Positions 5,504 through 21,732 of a DNA stretch of 38,041 nt are shown one piece after another. The stretch comes from a virus. Below the pieces are notes generated by a model. That model was not told the origin of the DNA. It ran no database searches and saw nothing but the letters and a program-made list of their open reading frames with translations. The stretch is taken from positions 1-38,041 of IMG/VR virus record IMGVR_UViG_3300020583_000024; one strand, given 5' to 3'. A program made the translations under genes and the position numbers. How positions within the stretch are numbered: the first letter of the stretch is position 1; each line of letters begins with the position of its first letter.

Positions 5504-5534
5504 TTGACAGGTGTATGCCTGATAGGGGTATCCT
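5504..5534 (+). promoter_or_regulatory. Candidate integrase promoter overlapped by an operator
   Basis: TTGACA (5504-5509) and TATCCT (5529-5534) are separated by 19 bp, about 50 bp before the integrase start at 5584. The spacing is longer than ideal. The palindrome CAGGTGTATGCCTGA (5508-5522) overlaps the -35 and spacer, so bound protein would block polymerase. A palindromic GTTCTAGAAC lies just upstream at 5474-5483. Promoter activity is inferred from sequence only. Confidence 0.4.
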
Positions 5535-5583
5535 TGCGCCCAGAGCCACACCCAGCGTCTGTGTCATCCGCGTCTGTAGGAAC

Positions 5584-6519
5584 ATGAAGAAACCCACGAA
5601 CGAGCTGCTGCCCGAGTACCTCGACCACTGGCTCGATGCGCGCGCGAGCGATGCTCAGCGCGGCGTCATCACGCACCGCACGCTCATGCGCTATCAGAGC
5701 GTCGTGCGGTGCCACCTGCAGCCCCTGCTCATTGGCGTCCACGTTCGAGACTTCGACGAGGAGCAGGTCCGCGATCTCTTCCACCTCCTCGGCGCCCACC
5801 GCCTGGCCGTGAACACCCAGAAGGGCGTCAAGAACGTGCTGAGCGCCGTGTGCCGCACGGCGATCCAGGAGAAGCGCCGCACGACGAACCCCGTGGAGCT
5901 GGCGCACATCCGGTTCGGCCGCGCCGAGGTCGGCAAGCCGTTCACGGCGCTCGATCAGCAGGCGTTCTTCAACGCCGCCCCGAGCGCCTGCCGGTTCATG
6001 TCGCTCTACACGCTGAAGGTGCTGACCGGCGCGCGGATCGCCGAGCTGCTGGGCACCCAGTGGCCGCAGCTCGATCTCGTGCGGGCGGAGCTGCGGCTCG
6101 AATCCCAGTGGTGCCGGGACACGCACCGGCTGGAACCCCTCAAGAACAAAAAGGCCCGCCGGGTCGACCTGTGCCCCCGCGCGGTCGCCGCCTTTCAACG
6201 GATTCCGCACACCGGACCCTTCATCTGGGGCAGCCCCAAGATGGAGTACCTGCAGCCGCTCTCCTACGAAGTGCTGCGCCGTGACTTCCGTGGCGGGCTC
6301 CTCGCCGCTGGCTTGGCCCGGCGCGGCTACACCATGCACGCGCTCCGGCACACCTACGCGACCCGGCTCCTGGAGCTGCCGGGCGTCCAGTTGCACTACG
6401 TGTCCGAGCAGCTCGGCCACGGCTCCCTGGAGATCACCCGCAACCTCTACGGCCGCACCGCACGGGCGCCGCGGCCGGACGTGCTGGCGCAGATGACCGA
6501 GCGCGGGTTCGGCGGATGA
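5584..6519 (+). CDS. int: Tyrosine recombinase (phage integrase)
   Basis: Site-specific recombinase for integration and excision, 311 residues from ATG 5584, preceded by TAGGA. An upstream in-frame ATG (5515) falls inside the promoter/operator region and is disfavoured. An N-terminal SAM-like core-binding domain (about 5-105) precedes the catalytic domain. Catalytic residues are all visible: R151 (TGARIAELL), a lysine in LKNKK (187-190), H252/R255 (HALRHTYATRL), H279 (QLGHGSLEIT) and nucleophile Y289 (RNLYGR). There is no arm-binding domain of the lambda type. It converges with the HTH gene 6522-7298, with only 2 bp between the stops. No attachment site could be identified. Confidence 0.92.
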   Translation: MKKPTNELLPEYLDHWLDARASDAQRGVITHRTLMRYQSVVRCHLQPLLIGVHVRDFDEEQVRDLFHLLGAHRLAVNTQKGVKNVLSAVCRTAIQEKRRTTNPVELAHIRFGRAEVGKPFTALDQQAFFNAAPSACRFMSLYTLKVLTGARIAELLGTQWPQLDLVRAELRLESQWCRDTHRLEPLKNKKARRVDLCPRAVAAFQRIPHTGPFIWGSPKMEYLQPLSYEVLRRDFRGGLLAAGLARRGYTMHALRHTYATRLLELPGVQLHYVSEQLGHGSLEITRNLYGRTARAPRPDVLAQMTERGFGG

Positions 6520-6521
6520 CG

Positions 6522-7298
6522 TCACGCCGCTGCGAGGTAGCTAGGTGGTTGAACAAACCGCAGTTGGTGCGATGTACGAGATGTGACTGGCGCACAGGCC
6601 ATGCCTGCGCGATTTCGCTCAGCCTTTCGGCCGGCGCGCGTGCGACCTGCCTTGGCGCGCGCCTTCCCCCGCTTCTTCGCCTTCGCGAGCTTCGTGACCT
6701 TCTTCTTCGCCGCCCCGCGCTGAATCTGGCGCACCGTGGCGGCGCCCGGGCCGGGCAGCCGGCGCTCCTCGGGGGGCGCGTAGACGATGCGCTCCATGCC
6801 GCCCCCGACGCTGGTCGGGCGGAGCGGCGCCCCGTCGAGGTCGACGAGGTCCTGGGACTCCATCGGGAAGAAGCGATGGGGGGGCTGGTAGAGGCCGAGT
6901 CGGTCGGTCTCCTCGTCGTAGACGGTGGCGAAGCGCCCGGGCTCGCGCGTCGGGACCACGTGCACGGGGAGGCGACCCTGGGCGGTCGGCCGGACCATCC
7001 CGCCACGGGTCCGCAGCTCGGGCATCCAGTTGACCAGGCCCATCAGCTCGGCGGCGGGGATCGGGTGCCCGTTGCGGGCGGCCACCGCTGCCCAGCGGAG
7101 CGCCGCGTCGCGGCGCTTGATGAAGCCCCGGCTGATCGTCTCGTGGACTGAGGCCGGGGTGATGCCGAGGGCCTTCGCCGCCGGGGTCGGGCCGCCGAGC
7201 ACGGCATACACCAGCTCGTCGACCGCGTTGTTCAGGCGCCGTTCGAGGCGCCTCACCAGCTCGCGACCACCGGGCGGAACCTTGCGACTAAACGCCAT
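6522..7298 (-). CDS. HTH regulator-like protein with basic C-terminal tail
   Basis: 258 residues. A helix-turn-helix of Cro/YdaS style lies at about 36-62 (TPAAKALGITPASVHETISRGFIKRRDAALRWA). It is followed by a central domain of unknown type with GRFATVYDEETDRLGLY. Residues about 197-235 are extremely basic (AAKKKVTKLAKAKKRGKARAK), likely for nonspecific nucleic-acid binding. The gene is divergent from the recombination cassette (7468-13085) across a 169-bp control region and convergent with int. It is therefore a good candidate for the repressor or switch protein of the integration region. Regulatory function is inferred; the central domain is unassigned. Confidence 0.68.
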   Translation of the reverse strand: MAFSRKVPPGGRELVRRLERRLNNAVDELVYAVLGGPTPAAKALGITPASVHETISRGFIKRRDAALRWAAVAARNGHPIPAAELMGLVNWMPELRTRGGMVRPTAQGRLPVHVVPTREPGRFATVYDEETDRLGLYQPPHRFFPMESQDLVDLDGAPLRPTSVGGGMERIVYAPPEERRLPGPGAATVRQIQRGAAKKKVTKLAKAKKRGKARAKAGRTRAGRKAERNRAGMACAPVTSRTSHQLRFVQPPSYLAAA

Positions 7299-7467
7299 AG
7301 ACGTCCTCCTCCTGCCGCCCCTCCTAGCGCCGGCGCCGGCTGAAGGTCAAGCGGAGGTTATCAACAACTAGAACAGGGGCCTAGAGGGAGGCCATTGACC
7401 CGACGCGAACCTCTCAGGTAAACACCATAGGTACAGTGCGCGCCTGGTGCGCGCCGAAGGAGGTCCC
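7299..7467. promoter_or_regulatory. Divergent control region between HTH gene and recombination cassette
   Basis: On the plus strand TTGACC (7395-7400), 18 bp, then TAAACA (7419-7424) form a candidate promoter for 7468. ACCTCTCAGGT overlaps the spacer/-10 junction, and its TCAGGT matches half of the palindrome at 5123 and 5508. GTGCGCGCC occurs twice with an 11-bp period (7436-7444, 7447-7455), giving a GCGCGC-5-GCGCGC inverted repeat right before the GAAGGAGGTCCC ribosome site. CTAGAACAG lies at 7368-7376. On the minus strand no convincing promoter pair was found for 7298. Confidence 0.45.
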
Positions 7468-8379
7468 ATGAGCACGAATCCGAACCCCCCGACCACCACG
7501 ACCGCCACGCCGCCGGCGCCGATCAGCGGCATCTACCGCGACCTCGATCCTCTCTGGGCGCGGTTCCAGGAGCTGCAGCAGAAGTTCAATCTCGCCTTCC
7601 CCGTCGTCCGGCCCGACTTCATTCCGCCGCTGCACGCGGCCGCGGTGCGCGTGGTTGCGCTCGATGCCGTGCATCTCCCGAAGAGCGCGGTGCGCCAGCC
7701 CGGGGAGAGCAGCGACTTCTACTACGACGGCAAGGCGAAGGCGTACGCGCTGACGAAGGTCGGCCTGGAGAAGATCGCGGCCTGCATGGGCGTCTCGTGG
7801 CATCCGCTGCTCTCCGGGCGCGTCGACGACGGCAGCGAGAACCTCTTCCGCCGCTACCGCATGACAGGCGTCTACGACGCCTTCGACGGCCGCGAGATGG
7901 TGATTGCCCGTCACAAGACCTGCGACTTCCGCGACGGCTCGCCGCAGATCGCCGGCATGTCGCCCGACCAGCTCGCGCAGTCGCGGAAGTTCATCGACGA
8001 GCACTGCGAGTCGAAGGCGATGAATCGGGTCGTCCGCTCGATCGCGCATCTCAAGTCGAGCTACACCGCCGAGGAGCTGAAGCGACCCTTCGCCGTGCTC
8101 GCCACCGTGTTCACCGGCGAGACGGACGACCCCGTGCTGAAGGCCGAGGTGGCGCGCCTCATGGTCGACCGCGCGATGAAGCGGAGCAGCCAGCTCTTCG
8201 GGCCGGGGCAGTTACCGGGCGGCGTGCAGCCCGAGCCCTTGCAGCGGACCGCGCCGCCGCCGGTGGGCCTCGCGAGCGATCATCCGACAGAGCCCGAAGC
8301 GCATGATCGCGAGCCCGGGGCGGACCAGCCCGAGCCCGAGCCCGAGCCGAACGGCAACGGCGGCACGGCGCCGTACTGA
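7468..8379 (+). CDS. Putative recombination (ssDNA-annealing-like) phage protein
   Basis: 303 residues from ATG 7468, with a strong GGAGG site. After a Pro/Thr-rich start, the core (about 20-240) contains FYYDGKAKAYALTKVGLEKIAACMGVSWHP, then a beta-rich FRRYRMTGVYDAFDGREM. A helical SKAMNRVVRSIAHLKSSYTAEELKRPFAVL follows. The pattern (Y/A-LTK-x-GL-x-K-I-A ... MNRV-x-R ... YT-x-EEL-x-x-PF) recurs in a group of phage proteins encoded with exonuclease genes and resembles RecT/ERF-type layout. The C-terminal tail is disordered with EP repeats. It is the first gene of a cassette ending in an SbcD-SbcC fusion, which supports a role in recombination. The annealing activity itself is inference. Confidence 0.55.
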   Translation: MSTNPNPPTTTTATPPAPISGIYRDLDPLWARFQELQQKFNLAFPVVRPDFIPPLHAAAVRVVALDAVHLPKSAVRQPGESSDFYYDGKAKAYALTKVGLEKIAACMGVSWHPLLSGRVDDGSENLFRRYRMTGVYDAFDGREMVIARHKTCDFRDGSPQIAGMSPDQLAQSRKFIDEHCESKAMNRVVRSIAHLKSSYTAEELKRPFAVLATVFTGETDDPVLKAEVARLMVDRAMKRSSQLFGPGQLPGGVQPEPLQRTAPPPVGLASDHPTEPEAHDREPGADQPEPEPEPNGNGGTAPY

Positions 8380-8587: not shown

Positions 8588-8926
8588 ATGACACGCCGCT
8601 TCGAGCCGACACAGCGCACGCCGCTCTGGCCGCCCGCGGGCGCCGCCATGTGGCCCGACCTGCCCTCGCTGCCCGCCCTGCCGCCGTGCCCCATCGTGCT
8701 CGGCGACTGCCGCGTCGGCGATCGCGTGCTCCTCGCCGACGGCACGGAAGCCGAGATTCTCGCCGTCGGCTCGCTCGGCGTGCGGCTGCGGCCGTTCGTC
8801 AGCACGACGCGCGTGGTCGAAGATTCCCGCGCCGGCGTGACGCGCACCTTCGAGGTGCGGCGCCCGGCCTACACGATCGCCTCCAGTGCGACGGCGCAGG
8901 CGGTCATCGGCCACACCGCGGCATGA
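8588..8926 (+). CDS. Hypothetical protein in the recombination cassette
   Basis: 112 residues from ATG 8588, preceded by GGAGGC. The frame is open further upstream but overlaps the preceding gene. A Pro/Trp-rich start is followed by a small beta-barrel-like stretch, GDCRVGDRVLLADGTEAEILAVGSLGVRLRPF, that resembles KOW/SH3-like folds, then FEVRRPAYTIAS. The fold is a guess from residue pattern. Its stop overlaps the next start (ATGA). Its role in the cassette is unknown. Confidence 0.64.
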   Translation: MTRRFEPTQRTPLWPPAGAAMWPDLPSLPALPPCPIVLGDCRVGDRVLLADGTEAEILAVGSLGVRLRPFVSTTRVVEDSRAGVTRTFEVRRPAYTIASSATAQAVIGHTAA

Positions 8927-9177
8927 ATACGCTCCACTCTTACAAGGCGCGCGACTTCGGCGGCACCGTGGTCGAAGACCTGCGCATTACCTTCGACCAG
9001 CCGCTGCCCGACAGCCAGCCGGACGTCGACCTGCTGGAGGAGTGGCAGCAGTGGTATCGCGCGGAAGCGCACCGGCTCGTCGACGCCATGCGCACCACGT
9101 TGCCCGGTGGCCTGATCGACGCGCTGCTCGTCGAGCTGCTGCGCGTGAAGGCGTGCGTCCTCGGGGTGACGCTGTGA
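8923..9177 (+). CDS. Small helical hypothetical protein before the SbcD-SbcC fusion
   Basis: 84 residues. ATG 8923 overlaps the upstream stop and its own stop overlaps the GTG of the fused nuclease gene, so the three are translationally coupled. The sequence is acidic in its first half (FDQPLPDSQPDVDLLEEWQQWY) with amphipathic helices after (EAHRLVDAMR, LIDALLVELLRVKACVLG). There is no known motif. Tight coupling suggests a partner or regulator of the nuclease, but this is position-based inference. Confidence 0.66.
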   Translation: MNTLHSYKARDFGGTVVEDLRITFDQPLPDSQPDVDLLEEWQQWYRAEAHRLVDAMRTTLPGGLIDALLVELLRVKACVLGVTL

Positions 9178-12100
9178 AGAAGAAGCCCGCGGGCACCATC
9201 CGCATCGCGCACACGGGCGACCTGCACGTCACCCGGGGCCCGCGCTTCGAGCTGGCGCGCACGTGCCTCGACTTCATCGTCGCCGACGGCACCAACCGCG
9301 GCGCCGACCTCTGGCTGGTCGGCGGCGATCTCACCGGCACCACGGTGCCGCACAAGAGCGAGCCCGAGGAGCGCCTGCTCATCGCGCACACGTTGCAGGC
9401 GATGGCGGAGTCGGCGCCGGTGATCGTCGCCGAAGGGAACCACGAGTTCCCCGGCGACATCCTGATCTACGAGAAGCTCCGCGGCCGCTTCCCGATCTAC
9501 GTCGAGACGCGCCCCGAGGCCCGCATCCTCGACCTCGCCACCGGGCCCGTCCTGGTGCTCACGCTGCCCTACCCGACGAAGCGCTGGGGGCAGGTGACCG
9601 AGAAGGGCGGCATCGAGGCCGCGCTGCGTGACCTGCTCGACTACTGGCGCGGCGTCGTCGCCGAGGAGCGCGCGAAGGGCGTGCCGACCATCCTGCTCGC
9701 GCACATCGCCATCGGCGGCTGCCTGGTCGGCGGCGGCGAGGTGCTGATCGGCCGCGAAGTCGAGCTAGCGCCGCACGACCTCGATGAGCTGGGCGTCGAC
9801 GTCGTGCTCCTCTCGCACATCCACAAGCAGCAGAAGATCGCGAAGGCCGCCTGGTACGCCGGGTCGCCGCTCGCGCAGAATTTCGGCGAGCCCGATCGCA
9901 AGGGCTACCTGATCGCCGACGTGGCCAGCGGCGTGGCGCCCGTCGTCACCGTGGTGCCGACGCCGGCCCGGCGCATGCTCACGATCGACGTGGCCTGGGT
10001 CCCGGGGGCGGCCGGCTTCCGCGGGCCGACGGGTGGTCCCCTCGTGCTCAGCGACGTGCGGGACGCCGAGCTACGGCTCCGCGTGACCGTCGACGAGGAG
10101 CACGCCAGCACGTGCCCGCTCGACGAGCTGGAAGCGATGGCGACCGCCGCCGGTGTCAACCGCGTGGTGGTGGAGCGCCACATCCGGCCCCGGGTGCGCT
10201 CGCGCCTGGAGGCCCTCCCGGCACCAGGGGGGGACACTGGGGACACTCTGGCAGATGCCTGGCAGGCGGCCACGTCGCTCGGCGAGAAGGTCAGCTTGTG
10301 GGCCACCACGCTCGGCCGCGAGGCGCCCCCCGCCGCGCTCATCGCGCGGGCCGTCACCCGCCTCGCAGAGCTGACAGCGGGGACGGTCGGCGGGGGCGGC
10401 CGCACAGCCCCGCAGCGGGCACGGGACATCTCCCTGGTGCGGGTCCGGCTGCGGCACGTCTCGGCTGCCTTCCAGGCGAGCGAGGCGGCCCTCGACGTGG
10501 CCCAGCTCGGCCCGGGACTGATCTGCCTGGTCGGCGAGAACGGCGCCGGCAAGTCGGTGCTCATGGAGGCGTCGGGCCCCGCGGCGCTCTACGGCACCTG
10601 GCCGACCTACGGGCTCACGGCGGTCAAGGACATGGTCATCCCCGGCGAGCGGGCCGCCGAGATCGAGGCGGTGTACCTGGTCGACGGCGTCGAGATCGTG
10701 TCCCGCTGGCGGATCGACTCGCAGTACGGCGGCGGCCGCGGGAAGGCCGAGGCGTGGCTCGGGGTCCGGAACCCCGACGGCAGCCTCGCGCCGCTGCCCG
10801 GCGCCGTGGCGCCAAGCGGGCCCGGGGTCGGCGAGCACCAGCAGGCCGTCGCCGAGTGGTTTCCGAGTGAGCCGCTCTTCCTCGCTGCCTGGTTCGCCGC
10901 CCAGGGCCGGCGTGGCGCCGCGGCCAACTTCTTCGGGCTCGCGAAGAAGGACCGGAAGGACCTCTTCCTCGCCATGCTCGGGCTCGGGCACCTCCAGGAG
11001 CTGGCGGAGGAGGCTGGCGACCGGGCGGAGTGCATCCTCGTTCCGCTCGATGCCGCGCGCCGCGACCTCGCGGCCGCCGAGGCGGCGCTGGTGCAGGCGA
11101 CCGTGCTCGACACCCAGCTCGCCACCTGCGAGCGCGCAGCCGCCGGGCTCGACGAGGCCGCCGCGGCGCTGCGCGCCGAGCGGACTGCTGCAGAGGATCG
11201 GCACCTCTTCGCGCGCACGGCGCTTGCCCGCGCCGAGGCGCAGGACGAGGCGGTGGTGGCGGAGATCGAACGTGTGACCCAGCAGCGCGTCGAGCTAGGC
11301 GCCGAGGTTGCGCAGCTCCGGCGCCGGATCGCCGAGCTAGACGACAGCCTCGTGGAGCGCCCGACCCTCGAAGCCGAGGCAGCGACTCGGGCGGACCACG
11401 AGGAGGCGGTGGCCGCCCTGCGTGCCCAGCTCGACGAGCTACTCGCACCCGATGCGCCGCTGGCTGAGGCCCGGGCTCAGGTGACGAGCTTGACGGCCGA
11501 ACGGGAGCGCGCGCTCACCGAGTGGACCCGACTCAGCGCTGATCTCACCGCCGCTCAGGCCGCCTACGCGCGCGTGCTGCGAGCCATCCCCGGGGGATGG
11601 GGGGCCTTCACCACGACGATCGAGCTGCACCAGGACGAGGTGCACCAACTCCGCGCGGTGGTGGATCGCCTGCAGGCGGACACCGAGGCGCTCGAAGCGG
11701 CCGCCGAGGCCGAGGCGCGTGCCGACGTGACGCACGCGCAGGAGGTGCGCGACCAGGCCGCGCACGCGCAGCGCGCCGAGCTGCTCGACCAGATTCCGGG
11801 CGTGCCCGAGTGTGACGCCTGCCCGTTGACCGCCGACGCGCGCCGGGCGCGTGGACGCGCCGCCAATCTGGCGACGATCCTGGCCAGCTCGCCGGTGCCG
11901 ACCTCCGCCGCGCGGCTCCGGCTGACCGAGCACCGCACTACCCTTGCCACCCAGCGCCAGGCGCTGCGCACGCGCGAGCAGCGCCTGGAAGCCCTGGAAC
12001 GCACGCGCCAGACCGTGCAGGCGGACATGCCGGTCGCCGGCCGGGTCGACGAGCTGACCGCGGCGAAGGAGGCCAACGTCGCTGCCGGTAAGGCGATCGC

Positions 12101-13085
12101 CGCGCAGCTCGCGACGGCGCAGGAGACCGTCACCGCGGAGGGGGCGAAGGTCGAGGTGACACGGGGCGCCCTCGCTGAGCAGGAGACCCTGCTCCGCGCC
12201 GCCACGGTGGCCACCACGGCGCTCGCCGAGCTGGCGACCGTGGCTGCTCGGCGGACCGACGCGGCGCAGCGGCTCGCCGTGCTGGCCGCGTCCCTGGAGA
12301 CCCCGCCCGTGCTCCCGGCCCGGCCGGACCTGAACGAGCCCCGGCAGACCGTCACCAGCGCCGAGCACATGCTCCGGCACGCCACCACCTGGGTCGCCGA
12401 GTGCACCACGTGGCAGCGCGCGGTCGACGCCGAGCGCGGCCGGGCCCAGGGCCAGCGTGAGGCGCTGGGCGATCCGGCGGCCGCACAGGCTGCCGCTGAG
12501 GCGGAGGTCGCGCAGCTCGACGCCGGGCATGCCGAGTGGGCACTGCTCGCCCGGGCCCTCGGCCGCGACGGCATCCAGGCGTGCGAGATCGACGCCGCGG
12601 GCCCGGCGGTGAGCACGCTCGCGAACGATCTCCTGCTCACGTGCTACGGGCCGCGCTTCACGCTCGCCCTCGACACCCAGGCGGCGAAGGTCGACGGCGG
12701 CGTCAAGGAAGTGTTCGACGTGCGCATCCTCGACGCGCAGACCGGCCGCGAGGCCCGCGAGGGCTCGGGCGGCGAGCAGACCATCCTGAACGAGGCGCTC
12801 GCGCTCGGGATCGCCATTTGGAACGCGCAGCGCTCGGGCTGGCACGTCCGCACCCTCTGGCGGGATGAGACGACGGCGGCGCTCACCGCGGCGCACGCGG
12901 CGCGCTACGTGACGATGCTCCGGCGGGCGGCCGAGGTGGGCGGCTTCACCCAGGTGCTCCTCGTGTCCCACCAGGAGTCGGTCTGGCAGTCGGCCGACGT
13001 GCGCGTGCGAGTCGAGGGCGGCGCGGTCACCGTCGAGTCCGAGCTACCGGCCACCGAGACGCCGGCTGCCGACGCGGCTGCGTGA
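9174..13085 (+). CDS. Single-chain SbcD-SbcC (Mre11-Rad50) fusion nuclease/ATPase
   Basis: 1303 residues from GTG 9174 (GTGA overlap). N-terminal SbcD/Mre11 phosphoesterase: D16/H18 (TGDLH), D52 (GGD), N89/H90 (GNHE), H177 (AHIAIGG), H215/H217 (SHIH), so all metal ligands are present. A capping-type region and linker (about 250-425) lead into SbcC/Rad50. That part has Walker A 454-461 (GENGAGKS, K460) and long coiled coils (about 640-1160) around a zinc hook C880-x2-C883 (CDAC). It also has signature 1198-1202 (SGGEQ), Walker B D1231/E1232 and switch H1266 (VSHQ). SbcCD is normally two proteins encoded by adjacent genes. No stop codon or frame change occurs between the halves. It should process DNA ends and hairpins for phage recombination and replication. 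Confidence 0.93.
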   Translation: MKKKPAGTIRIAHTGDLHVTRGPRFELARTCLDFIVADGTNRGADLWLVGGDLTGTTVPHKSEPEERLLIAHTLQAMAESAPVIVAEGNHEFPGDILIYEKLRGRFPIYVETRPEARILDLATGPVLVLTLPYPTKRWGQVTEKGGIEAALRDLLDYWRGVVAEERAKGVPTILLAHIAIGGCLVGGGEVLIGREVELAPHDLDELGVDVVLLSHIHKQQKIAKAAWYAGSPLAQNFGEPDRKGYLIADVASGVAPVVTVVPTPARRMLTIDVAWVPGAAGFRGPTGGPLVLSDVRDAELRLRVTVDEEHASTCPLDELEAMATAAGVNRVVVERHIRPRVRSRLEALPAPGGDTGDTLADAWQAATSLGEKVSLWATTLGREAPPAALIARAVTRLAELTAGTVGGGGRTAPQRARDISLVRVRLRHVSAAFQASEAALDVAQLGPGLICLVGENGAGKSVLMEASGPAALYGTWPTYGLTAVKDMVIPGERAAEIEAVYLVDGVEIVSRWRIDSQYGGGRGKAEAWLGVRNPDGSLAPLPGAVAPSGPGVGEHQQAVAEWFPSEPLFLAAWFAAQGRRGAAANFFGLAKKDRKDLFLAMLGLGHLQELAEEAGDRAECILVPLDAARRDLAAAEAALVQATVLDTQLATCERAAAGLDEAAAALRAERTAAEDRHLFARTALARAEAQDEAVVAEIERVTQQRVELGAEVAQLRRRIAELDDSLVERPTLEAEAATRADHEEAVAALRAQLDELLAPDAPLAEARAQVTSLTAERERALTEWTRLSADLTAAQAAYARVLRAIPGGWGAFTTTIELHQDEVHQLRAVVDRLQADTEALEAAAEAEARADVTHAQEVRDQAAHAQRAELLDQIPGVPECDACPLTADARRARGRAANLATILASSPVPTSAARLRLTEHRTTLATQRQALRTREQRLEALERTRQTVQADMPVAGRVDELTAAKEANVAAGKAIAAQLATAQETVTAEGAKVEVTRGALAEQETLLRAATVATTALAELATVAARRTDAAQRLAVLAASLETPPVLPARPDLNEPRQTVTSAEHMLRHATTWVAECTTWQRAVDAERGRAQGQREALGDPAAAQAAAEAEVAQLDAGHAEWALLARALGRDGIQACEIDAAGPAVSTLANDLLLTCYGPRFTLALDTQAAKVDGGVKEVFDVRILDAQTGREAREGSGGEQTILNEALALGIAIWNAQRSGWHVRTLWRDETTAALTAAHAARYVTMLRRAAEVGGFTQVLLVSHQESVWQSADVRVRVEGGAVTVESELPATETPAADAAA

Positions 13086-13117: not shown

Positions 13118-13291
13118 ATACCCCTTGCAACCGAACCGGGGACGATTTAGAGGCCCCCCAGTGTCAACTAGCGCATGGCGCATGTCGCGCTCTGACGTCG
13201 GGGGGAGATCGGCCGGGGGATCATGGGGACACTTGTCTCGTTCGCCGAAACGCGTCGCCGCCGTTACGCAGCACGGCGGACACAGCAGAGG

Positions 13292-13320
13292 TTGACGGAA
13301 CCAGAACGAAACCCTAGAGG
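13292..13320 (+). promoter_or_regulatory. Candidate promoter of the Xre-type regulator
   Basis: TTGACG (13292-13297) and TAGAGG (13315-13320) are spaced by exactly 17 bp. The predicted start of transcription (about 13327) lies after the ATG at 13223 and before the GTG at 13343, which supports the later start codon. GGAAGGGA upstream of the GTG serves as ribosome site. Confidence 0.45.
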
Positions 13321-13342
13321 CGGGCGCGGAAGGGACGACGAG

Positions 13343-13900
13343 GTGGCACCGCGCGCTACCGCTACCGCTACACTGGGCGACCTCCTGCGCGAGGCGCGCC
13401 AGCACCGAGAATGGAGCCTCCGGCGAGTCGCCGAGCTACTCGGCTGCACCGCGTCGTACCTTTCCGACGTCGAGCACAACCGCCGCGTGCCGGCGGAGGC
13501 GATGCTCGGGAAGCTCGCGAAGCTCTTCAGCCTCAACTTCGACGAGTTGATGGCGCGCGCCGGCCGCTTCGGCGAAAAGGGGAAACGCTTCCTCGAACGC
13601 AGTCCGAGCGTCGGACTCCTCGTGCGCCGACTCGCGGAGGTCAATGTCAGCGACGAAGAGCTATCCGCGCTCCTCGGATACCTCGAAACTCATCCCAGCG
13701 TCGGGCTGCTCGTGCGGCTCTTCGCCAAGTACGAGATCGAGGAACCCGAAGTGCGGAAGATGCTCGACATCTCCACCCTGGCCTACCGTCTGGTCGACGA
13801 GGGCGTGGTCTGCAAAGCGCAGCTCGCGACCATGCTCGATGGCATCGCGCACGACGTCACCATCCAGACGAAGCGATTGCAGCGGCGCGCGCGGCCGTAG
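13343..13900 (+). CDS. Xre-family HTH transcriptional regulator
   Basis: 185 residues from GTG 13343. An N-terminal Xre HTH (about 10-68) reads LGDLLREARQHREWSLRRVAELLGCTASYLSDVEHNRRVP, typical of Cro/CI-type domains. The C-terminal part contains a repeated motif, SPSVGLLVRRLAE (87-99) and HPSVGLLVRLFAK (117-129). GTG is preferred over in-frame ATG 13223: the extra 40 codons have much lower GC at third positions, and a promoter-like sequence lies between the two. There is no visible peptidase (LexA/CI) domain, so induction by RecA cleavage is unlikely. It probably controls phage genes; targets are unknown. It stops 1 bp before the tRNA on the opposite strand. Confidence 0.8.
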   Translation: MAPRATATATLGDLLREARQHREWSLRRVAELLGCTASYLSDVEHNRRVPAEAMLGKLAKLFSLNFDELMARAGRFGEKGKRFLERSPSVGLLVRRLAEVNVSDEELSALLGYLETHPSVGLLVRLFAKYEIEEPEVRKMLDISTLAYRLVDEGVVCKAQLATMLDGIAHDVTIQTKRLQRRARP

Positions 13901-13901
13901 G

Positions 13902-13974
13902 AGCCGCCCGCAGGACTCGAACCTGCATCGGCCGGCTTACGAGGCCGGGGCTCTTCCAGTTAAGCTAGAGCGGC
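13902..13974 (-). tRNA. tRNA-Thr (anticodon CGT)
   Basis: All arms can be paired by eye. The acceptor is GCCGCTC with GGGCGGC (one T-G pair). The D-arm is GCTT/GAGC with GG in the loop. The anticodon stem is CCGGC/GCCGG with loop CTCGTAA (anticodon CGT, reading ACG). The variable loop has 5 nt, and the T-arm is GCAGG-TTCGAGT-CCTGC. Position 8 is T, 14 is A and 21 is A. CCA is not encoded. ACG is a common Thr codon in this GC-rich genome, so the tRNA could help late translation. It could also be a remnant of an attachment site. Confidence 0.9.
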
Positions 13975-20765: not shown

Positions 20766-20929
20766 CGGACTCCCTTCCGCTTGCGGGCCTCGACCCGCCG
20801 GTCGCACTCGTCGCCGCGCTCGTGGCTCGCGCGCGCGAGCGCATTCGTCGAGATCGTGAGCCCGCAGCGCCGGCAGGTCATGCGGCCGGGCCCGTTCGGG
20901 GCGTAGTGCAGCAGCAGGCGCGGCGTCAC
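20762..20929 (-). CDS. Small zinc-finger protein next to the Mom-like gene
   Basis: 55 residues from GTG 20929, overlapping the stop of the Mom-like gene (GTGA) and ending in an overlap with the RHH gene. It contains C19-x2-C22 (TCRRCGL), then H36 and C42 (SHERGDEC), a C2HC-type zinc site, followed by a basic tail (RRVEARKRKGVR). In phage Mu the zinc-finger protein Com is encoded next to mom and activates its translation. This protein is not obviously Com-like, and it lies downstream rather than upstream, so the analogy is only positional. Confidence 0.66.
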   Translation of the reverse strand: MTPRLLLHYAPNGPGRMTCRRCGLTISTNALARASHERGDECDRRVEARKRKGVR

Positions 20930-21732
20930 GCGGCCACCTGCAGGCGCGGATACGGGGCGGACGCCGGGAGCGTGCGCGCGTCGCTGCGCGCGAACGCCCA
21001 GGCGTACTTGAAGTTGCCAGGGTGCCGCAGCGGGCGCGTCACCCGCGGCAGCCAGGTCGCGAGCCAGGCGCGGCGCGCGGTCGTGTCCTCGGGAGCTGTC
21101 TCGGCACCGTGGCGTTCGAGGAGGGCGGCCGCGTAGCGCCAGCCGCGCTCGCCCTTGCGGAGCTTCTGCACGGCGCGGTCGGAGAACACGGTGGCGTCGG
21201 GCAGCAAGCGCAGCGTGCGCGCGGTGCCGCGGCCGAGGAAGCAGCCGTTCGACGCCTGGTAGATCACGCCGACGTGCCCGGGAAAGACGACGCGGCCGTC
21301 GGCGACGGTGCGCGCCACCGGGTCGGAGAACGACACGACGCCGCGGTAGCCGTCGCGGCGGAGCTGCGCGAACGCACGCGCGAGGAACCAGGTCTCGCCG
21401 TTCCCGGGCACCGAGTCGAGCAGCACGAAGCGCCCCAGCTCGACCGACTCGCGGGCGTCGCCGGGGAAGACCGAGGTGAGCGTGTGATCGTTCACCGGAT
21501 GCGAGAACACCGCGACGCCGACGAGGGCGCCGTGGCGGTAGAGCCCGTAGCGGGCGCGCGCGGCCGGGTAGCTCGCCGCGTAGTGATGCGTGACGACGAA
21601 GCCGCGCGCCGTGGCGTCATCGGCGATCGGGGCCACGTCGTACTCGCGCGGCTGGATCAGCTCGCCGGCGGGGCGGAAGCGGTGGCGGCGATGGCGCCAG
21701 CGTTGCGTGAAGTCGAGCCCGAGCTGGATCAT
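20926..21732 (-). CDS. Mom-like DNA modification protein (GNAT-type fold)
   Basis: 268 residues. The central domain (about 40-210) follows the Mom/GNAT-like pattern. It has THHYAASYPAARARYGLYRHGALVGVAVFSHPV, then ELGRFVLLDSVPGNGETWFLARAF, GYRGVVSFSDPVA, and GHVGVIYQASNGCFLG. The last block (VSFSDP ... GxVYQA-x-N) is characteristic of phage Mom-like proteins. In Mu, Mom modifies adenines so that virion DNA resists restriction. The protein is predicted to protect phage DNA in the same way; its exact substrate and modification are unknown. It is in an operon with membrane proteins upstream and a zinc-finger protein downstream. Confidence 0.76.
   Translation of the reverse strand: MIQLGLDFTQRWRHRRHRFRPAGELIQPREYDVAPIADDATARGFVVTHHYAASYPAARARYGLYRHGALVGVAVFSHPVNDHTLTSVFPGDARESVELGRFVLLDSVPGNGETWFLARAFAQLRRDGYRGVVSFSDPVARTVADGRVVFPGHVGVIYQASNGCFLGRGTARTLRLLPDATVFSDRAVQKLRKGERGWRYAAALLERHGAETAPEDTTARRAWLATWLPRVTRPLRHPGNFKYAWAFARSDARTLPASAPYPRLQVAA

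Follow-up and report, generated by a model that had tools for sequence, protein, structure and literature searches.

The window analysed here, 38041 bases long, is the whole of the IMG/VR virus record IMGVR_UViG_3300020583_000024. It carries one gene in which an SbcD (Mre11) nuclease and an SbcC (Rad50) ATPase are joined, and a second gene further upstream, here called gene X. We favour, with a probability of roughly 0.7, the reading that the joined gene encodes a single-chain Mre11-Rad50 nuclease of a temperate phage, whose M2R2-like homodimer would resect DNA ends for a Rad52-like product of gene X. The fusion would have arisen by local loss of a stop codon, independently of the fusions of the Mimivirus R555 type and of those in two other viral loci, L006 and L018.

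The frame check confirmed that SbcD and SbcC share one uninterrupted frame of 1303 sense codons that ends at a stop, as claimed in the original prediction. All nuclease ligands named there (D16, H18, D52, N89/H90, H177 and H215/H217) and all ATPase motifs were recovered at the positions given (Table 1); the Walker A motif reads GENGAGKS. Pfam recognised Metallophos at residues 9-218 (E 1.8e-12), and SMC_N matched residues 1165-1280 below its curated cut-off. PHROG profiles matched both an SbcC-like (3e-25) and an SbcD-like (4e-11) family, and the protein is 37% identical across its whole length to the SbcD and SbcC pair of the related locus L011. Judged by sequence, the homology of both halves to SbcD and SbcC is far beyond chance. 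At the GTG start four bases (GTGA) are shared with the end of the preceding open reading frame (ORF), stop included; the Shine-Dalgarno energy there is strong (-9.3 kcal/mol). The frame is open further upstream, to 8886, and this extra stretch falls within the preceding ORF.

Alignment of the N-terminal part to split SbcD proteins extends across the cap and the C-terminal helix-loop-helix; the SbcC part matches a split SbcC from end to end, its CDAC hook corresponding to CSAC in L011. The helix-loop-helix is aligned to relatives and predicted helical at moderate confidence; the insertion ahead of it is found in no aligned relative, and the linker behind it has little similarity to the split proteins. 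An AlphaFold model of the nuclease half was of high confidence to about residue 340, and a Foldseek search with the Mre11 half gave a list that was led by T. maritima Mre11 and included E. coli SbcD; the entry 3tho matched at E 1.4e-16. The Mre11 metal ligands lie in a predicted calcineurin-like fold with a cap domain, and the second half has the Walker A motif, CxxC hook, SGGE signature, Walker B DE and H-loop of a predicted Rad50. By sequence, the product is an intact nuclease with cap, helix-loop-helix and a linker of about 16 residues, followed in one frame by an intact SMC-type ATPase with CxxC hook. With both domains complete and the nuclease first, it is classed as a Mre11/Rad50 fusion.

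Fusions of this kind have been known since 2011, when Yoshida, Claverie and Ogata described thirteen (PMC3175470). They come from Mimivirus (R555), a phage (Bacillus phage 0305phi8-36), bacteria, plasmids (those of Clostridium kluyveri and a Deferribacter megaplasmid) and eukaryotes (slime moulds, moss, a diatom and Micromonas). R555 homologues were abundant in viral metagenomes, and the authors suggested that operons in viruses had given rise to fusions on several occasions (PMC3175470). Our scans of viral contigs added at least 24 fused ORFs. In 22 contigs nuclease and Walker A lie in one ORF of about 1000-1160 residues, which we label R555-like by length and architecture (Mimivirus R555 itself is not among the tree rows); the other two, L006 and L018, lie outside that clade. 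The view that no well-characterised example exists consequently falls as far as description is concerned; it may still hold for biochemistry, on which we found no report in the literature. Like the 2011 fusions, the window protein has Mre11 N-terminal and Rad50 C-terminal in one chain, with a short linker after the helices that would bind Rad50. It differs from them in its place among split phage pairs, apparently as a separate event. Cap, helix-loop-helix and the two lobes of the ATPase are all retained, unlike in the 0305phi8-36 fusion as described in PMC3175470.

A scan of viral contigs with a nuclease alignment recovered 51 loci, and one with an ATPase C-lobe alignment 46 loci, all 46 unfused; a scan with a single sequence found no relatives in the viral contigs. 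Among genome contigs, an alignment of the window and L011 found no loci, and the ATPase C-lobe alignment found three, all in metagenome-assembled genomes: in two the nuclease has an ORF of its own, and the 5.6-kb contig of the third (L063) carries no nuclease. The split phage pairs L011, L104, L012 and L088 have the same domains in the same order as the window but make two polypeptides; the CxxC hook is present in L011, and gene X is often shared upstream. The two genes of L011 overlap at ATGA. Leptospira phage LE1 (gp75/gp74) has a more distant split pair. E. coli SbcCD, T. maritima Mre11-Rad50 and T4 gp47-gp46, the last with a role in recombination-dependent replication, share folds and catalytic motifs with the window protein but are encoded by two genes and are distant in sequence (best Protein Data Bank match E ~1e-8). 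At L013 (3392-5977; L105 is the same contig) SbcC is split into two ORFs and SbcD is intact, possibly a pseudogene or an error.

In a tree built on nuclease and ATPase together, the window did not group with the R555-like fused proteins; it was sister to split L011 (Shimodaira-Hasegawa-like approximate likelihood-ratio support 95), within a clade of five (support 100) whose other members, L011, L104, L012 and L088, are all split. The supported branches force three changes between the split and fused states. Approximately unbiased (AU) tests on this alignment rejected one clade of all five fused rows (p 1.5e-5) as well as a clade of the window with L006 and L018 (p 0.0017). Two R555-like rows, L033 and L061, were rescored from split to fused after the tree had been seen, on the basis of ORF length and Walker motifs, which cut the number of changes from seven to three; L043, L038, L039, L047 and L049, with truncated or interrupted genes, were left unscored. 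Alignment A7, of nuclease-only and ATPase-only rows, misplaced the ATPase rows and was excluded. Since the trees are quick and the rows divergent, we regard the separation of the window fusion from the R555-type and L006/L018 fusions, as read from these trees, as well supported, not proven. The SbcD and SbcC of L104 share one frame with a single TGA between them, and their alignment to window residues 7-1287 spans that TGA. L104 is thus matched almost end to end across one internal stop, and loss of a stop codon suffices for the fusion. A two-gene operon that lost its stop codon in this way is the probable origin of the joined gene.

We propose that two chains would dimerise through their Mre11 and Rad50 heads to give a homodimer equivalent to M2R2. 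The original prediction held that a fusion changes the usual assembly, which is not supported: some 28 A separate the C-terminus of Mre11 from the N-terminus of Rad50, a linker of 9-12 residues is enough, and the order Mre11 first, Rad50 second has been argued to be compatible with the known complex (PMC3175470). The window protein retains the helix region predicted to bind Rad50, and its linker is about 16 residues long, so that the usual M2R2 head could form from a homodimer. Such a homodimer would grip DNA ends under ATP control and resect or clip them. The single strands might then be handed to the gene X product, as lambda exonuclease hands them to Beta, a step suggested by gene order and a weak fold match, and annealing by X would serve phage replication and recombination. 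The gene itself would have formed by local fusion of a tightly linked sbcD-sbcC operon through stop-codon loss.

Gene X has homologues upstream of SbcD, on the same strand, in 53 of 111 loci, duplicate contigs being counted; L006 and L018, the separate fusions, belong to these 53, as does Leptospira phage LE1. PHROGs places gene X in a family of unknown function only. The annealing-protein families of Pfam (Rad52/22, RecT, Erf, Sak3) gave no match in 34 gene X members, an absence that does not exclude such a role. The model of gene X was good (predicted local distance difference test, pLDDT, 82.5), and human RAD52 came first in both Foldseek (E ~0.01) and VIA-align (Z 5.6-6.8), with Mgm101 at Z 5.0. 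Given these modest fold scores and the fixed position beside a resecting nuclease, a Rad52-like annealing protein is our best guess for X. In lambda Exo-Beta and RecE-RecT a resecting nuclease is likewise encoded beside an annealing protein. The window resembles them in having X beside its nuclease, the annealing role of X being a prediction, and differs in that its nuclease is Mre11-Rad50 and X matches none of the annealing families annotated in Pfam and PHROGs. The pairing of SbcC with an annealing protein has a precedent, since sbcC adjoins sak4 annealing genes in some streptococcal phages (PMC8093625). We see even odds that X, SbcD and SbcC form a conserved, unrecognised annealing and resection module of phages, in which Mre11-Rad50 stands in for an exonuclease of the lambda type and the annealing is done by X, as a divergent Rad52-like protein, and whose nuclease and ATPase halves fused separately in at least two X-keeping phage lineages (the window; L006/L018). 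The gene X profile also picks up LE1 gp76 (L002, 2048-3001) at E 7e-9, and for this reason the note in its record, peptidase M20/M25/M40, may be wrong.

The window further encodes an integrase, a repressor-like protein, a replication initiator, a RuvC-like resolvase, a baseplate wedge protein and tail proteins, a gene content that points to a temperate contractile-tailed phage; the record is probably a fragment of its genome. The integrase search gave weak plasmid matches only. Away from the tail genes, the fused gene occupies part of the + strand between the integrase (5515-6519) and the repressor-like gene (13223-13900). This position would fit a cargo gene, and the enzyme might accordingly serve conflict rather than recombination, either in host DNA breakdown or as a lysogen-expressed defence against other phages. 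We consider this unlikely, as the enzyme occurs with X upstream across many divergent phages, a spread that suggests core metabolism, and the window also encodes the resolvase and the replication initiator.

We hold it to be similarly improbable that the one frame makes two products, with an internal start at GTG 10437 (V422) also yielding free SbcC so that the 1:1 ratio is not fixed. This codon stands 32 residues ahead of Walker A, close to the 33-34 residues of the split relatives' starts, but its Shine-Dalgarno energy (-4.0 kcal/mol) is that of the average in-frame ATG or GTG codon (mean -4.1), and the internal start was rejected for want of such support. Programmed readthrough in the kin with both genes in one frame seems unlikely: their stops differ (TGA, TAA, TAA, TGA, TAG) and by eye share no context.

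At the junction, homology in frame 0 extends through the whole helix-loop-helix and begins again where SbcC starts; the roughly 50 nt between could hide an error, and codon-position G+C is continuous across them. A true genome with two genes, joined here by a wrong base or an indel, would agree with the 46 unfused viral loci, with the GGGGG run within the linker at 10392, and with L104, where the single TGA means that one wrong base could, in principle, equally create a fusion. A single indel is disfavoured by the out-of-frame stops, as the SbcD tail would run on to 10519 or 10868, within the ATPase coding region and unlike the tight junctions of many relatives. For a substitution, the consensus would have to be wrong in precisely one codon, the window linker exceeds the two residues between the L104 stop and its SbcC start, and similar fusions in other phages indicate that nothing forbids one, so that we judge a sequencing or assembly error very unlikely.

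Several points nevertheless weigh against the single-chain nuclease acting with a Rad52-like X. The window has the sole fused gene in its close family, and consequently the junction has no support from a second contig. A clade of the window with L006 and L018 survives the AU test when only the nuclease is used (p 0.154). The ATPase N-lobe was modelled poorly (pLDDT ~30-50), as is expected with the C-lobe absent from the model and a shallow alignment. The match of gene X to RAD52 is weak at the Foldseek E value given above, and its Z scores lie in a range that the tool calls common. Moreover L011, the closest kin, has no X homologue in the profile search. A phrog_10048 protein stands in X's place there (6821-7981); its similarity to X is confined to a short stretch and is weak (hhalign probability 10.7), and it is perhaps a different annealing protein.

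Table 1. Positions of the fused gene, its parts and neighbours in the window, and of interrupted R555-like genes in other contigs.
Feature	Position	Strand	Basis
Fused SbcD-SbcC (Mre11-Rad50) gene, 1303 residues, GTG start	9174..13085	+	frame, Pfam, PHROG, alignment
Mre11 nuclease and cap domain, residues 8-340	9195..10193	+	alignment, structure prediction
Insertion of ~15 residues, residues 347-362	10212..10259	+	alignment
Helix-loop-helix region, residues 359-405, Rad50-binding by homology	10248..10388	+	alignment, model
Linker, ~residues 402-418, GTVGGGGRTAPQRARD, between last SbcD and first SbcC homology	10377..10427	+	alignment
In-frame GTG (V422) at the SbcC-start place of split relatives, without Shine-Dalgarno support	10437..10439	+	
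Walker A, residues 454-461	10533..10556	+	sequence
CxxC hook CDAC, residues 880-883	11811..11822	+	sequence, alignment
ABC signature SGGEQ, residues 1198-1202	12765..12779	+	sequence
Walker B, D1231-E1232	12864..12869	+	sequence
H-loop, H1266	12969..12971	+	sequence
Gene X (phrog_13782), conserved upstream of SbcD; product a predicted Rad52-like annealing protein	7468..8379	+	
Small ORF, 84 residues, overlaps fusion start by 4 bases	8923..9177	+	
Interrupted R555-like fusion, L038	1137-5360		
Interrupted R555-like fusion, L039	8001-12224		
Interrupted R555-like fusion, L049	7944-12021		
Interrupted R555-like fusion, L047	7977-11388		
Interrupted R555-like fusion, L042	2507-5700		

The interrupted R555-like fusions share a break point in the nuclease domain, which follows GDIHKQQYLGYREYEE and precedes MKKLVPWIGYAGS. 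L038, L039 and L049 have an insert of about 830-1060 nt there, encoding a zinc-ribbon and Vsr-like protein (Vsr E 9e-5, below the cut-off) that is likely a homing endonuclease. L047 has a 170-nt remnant at the site and L042 no insert; an Rfam search for an intron found none in the three contigs searched. Elsewhere in the window, a Mom-like DNA modification protein (phrog_1384, E 3e-26) is encoded at 20926-21732(-), with a 49% identical homologue in L107. ARAGORN reported a tRNA-Arg at 10724-10807(-), antisense inside the ATPase coding region and probably false, and a tRNA-Thr at 13900-13974(-), which abuts the end of the repressor-like gene.

The fusion adds one clean case to a known kind, and supports the 2011 proposal of repeated fusion from operons, since its closest kin are split and in one of them a lone stop codon makes the whole difference in layout. 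Structural and single-molecule studies may also become easier with an enzyme whose Mre11 and Rad50 parts come 1:1 from one gene. Gene X may be the more useful outcome, as an unannotated family beside Mre11-Rad50 genes in dozens of divergent phages. If X is indeed a Rad52-type annealing protein, X and the nuclease would make up a testable recombination system.

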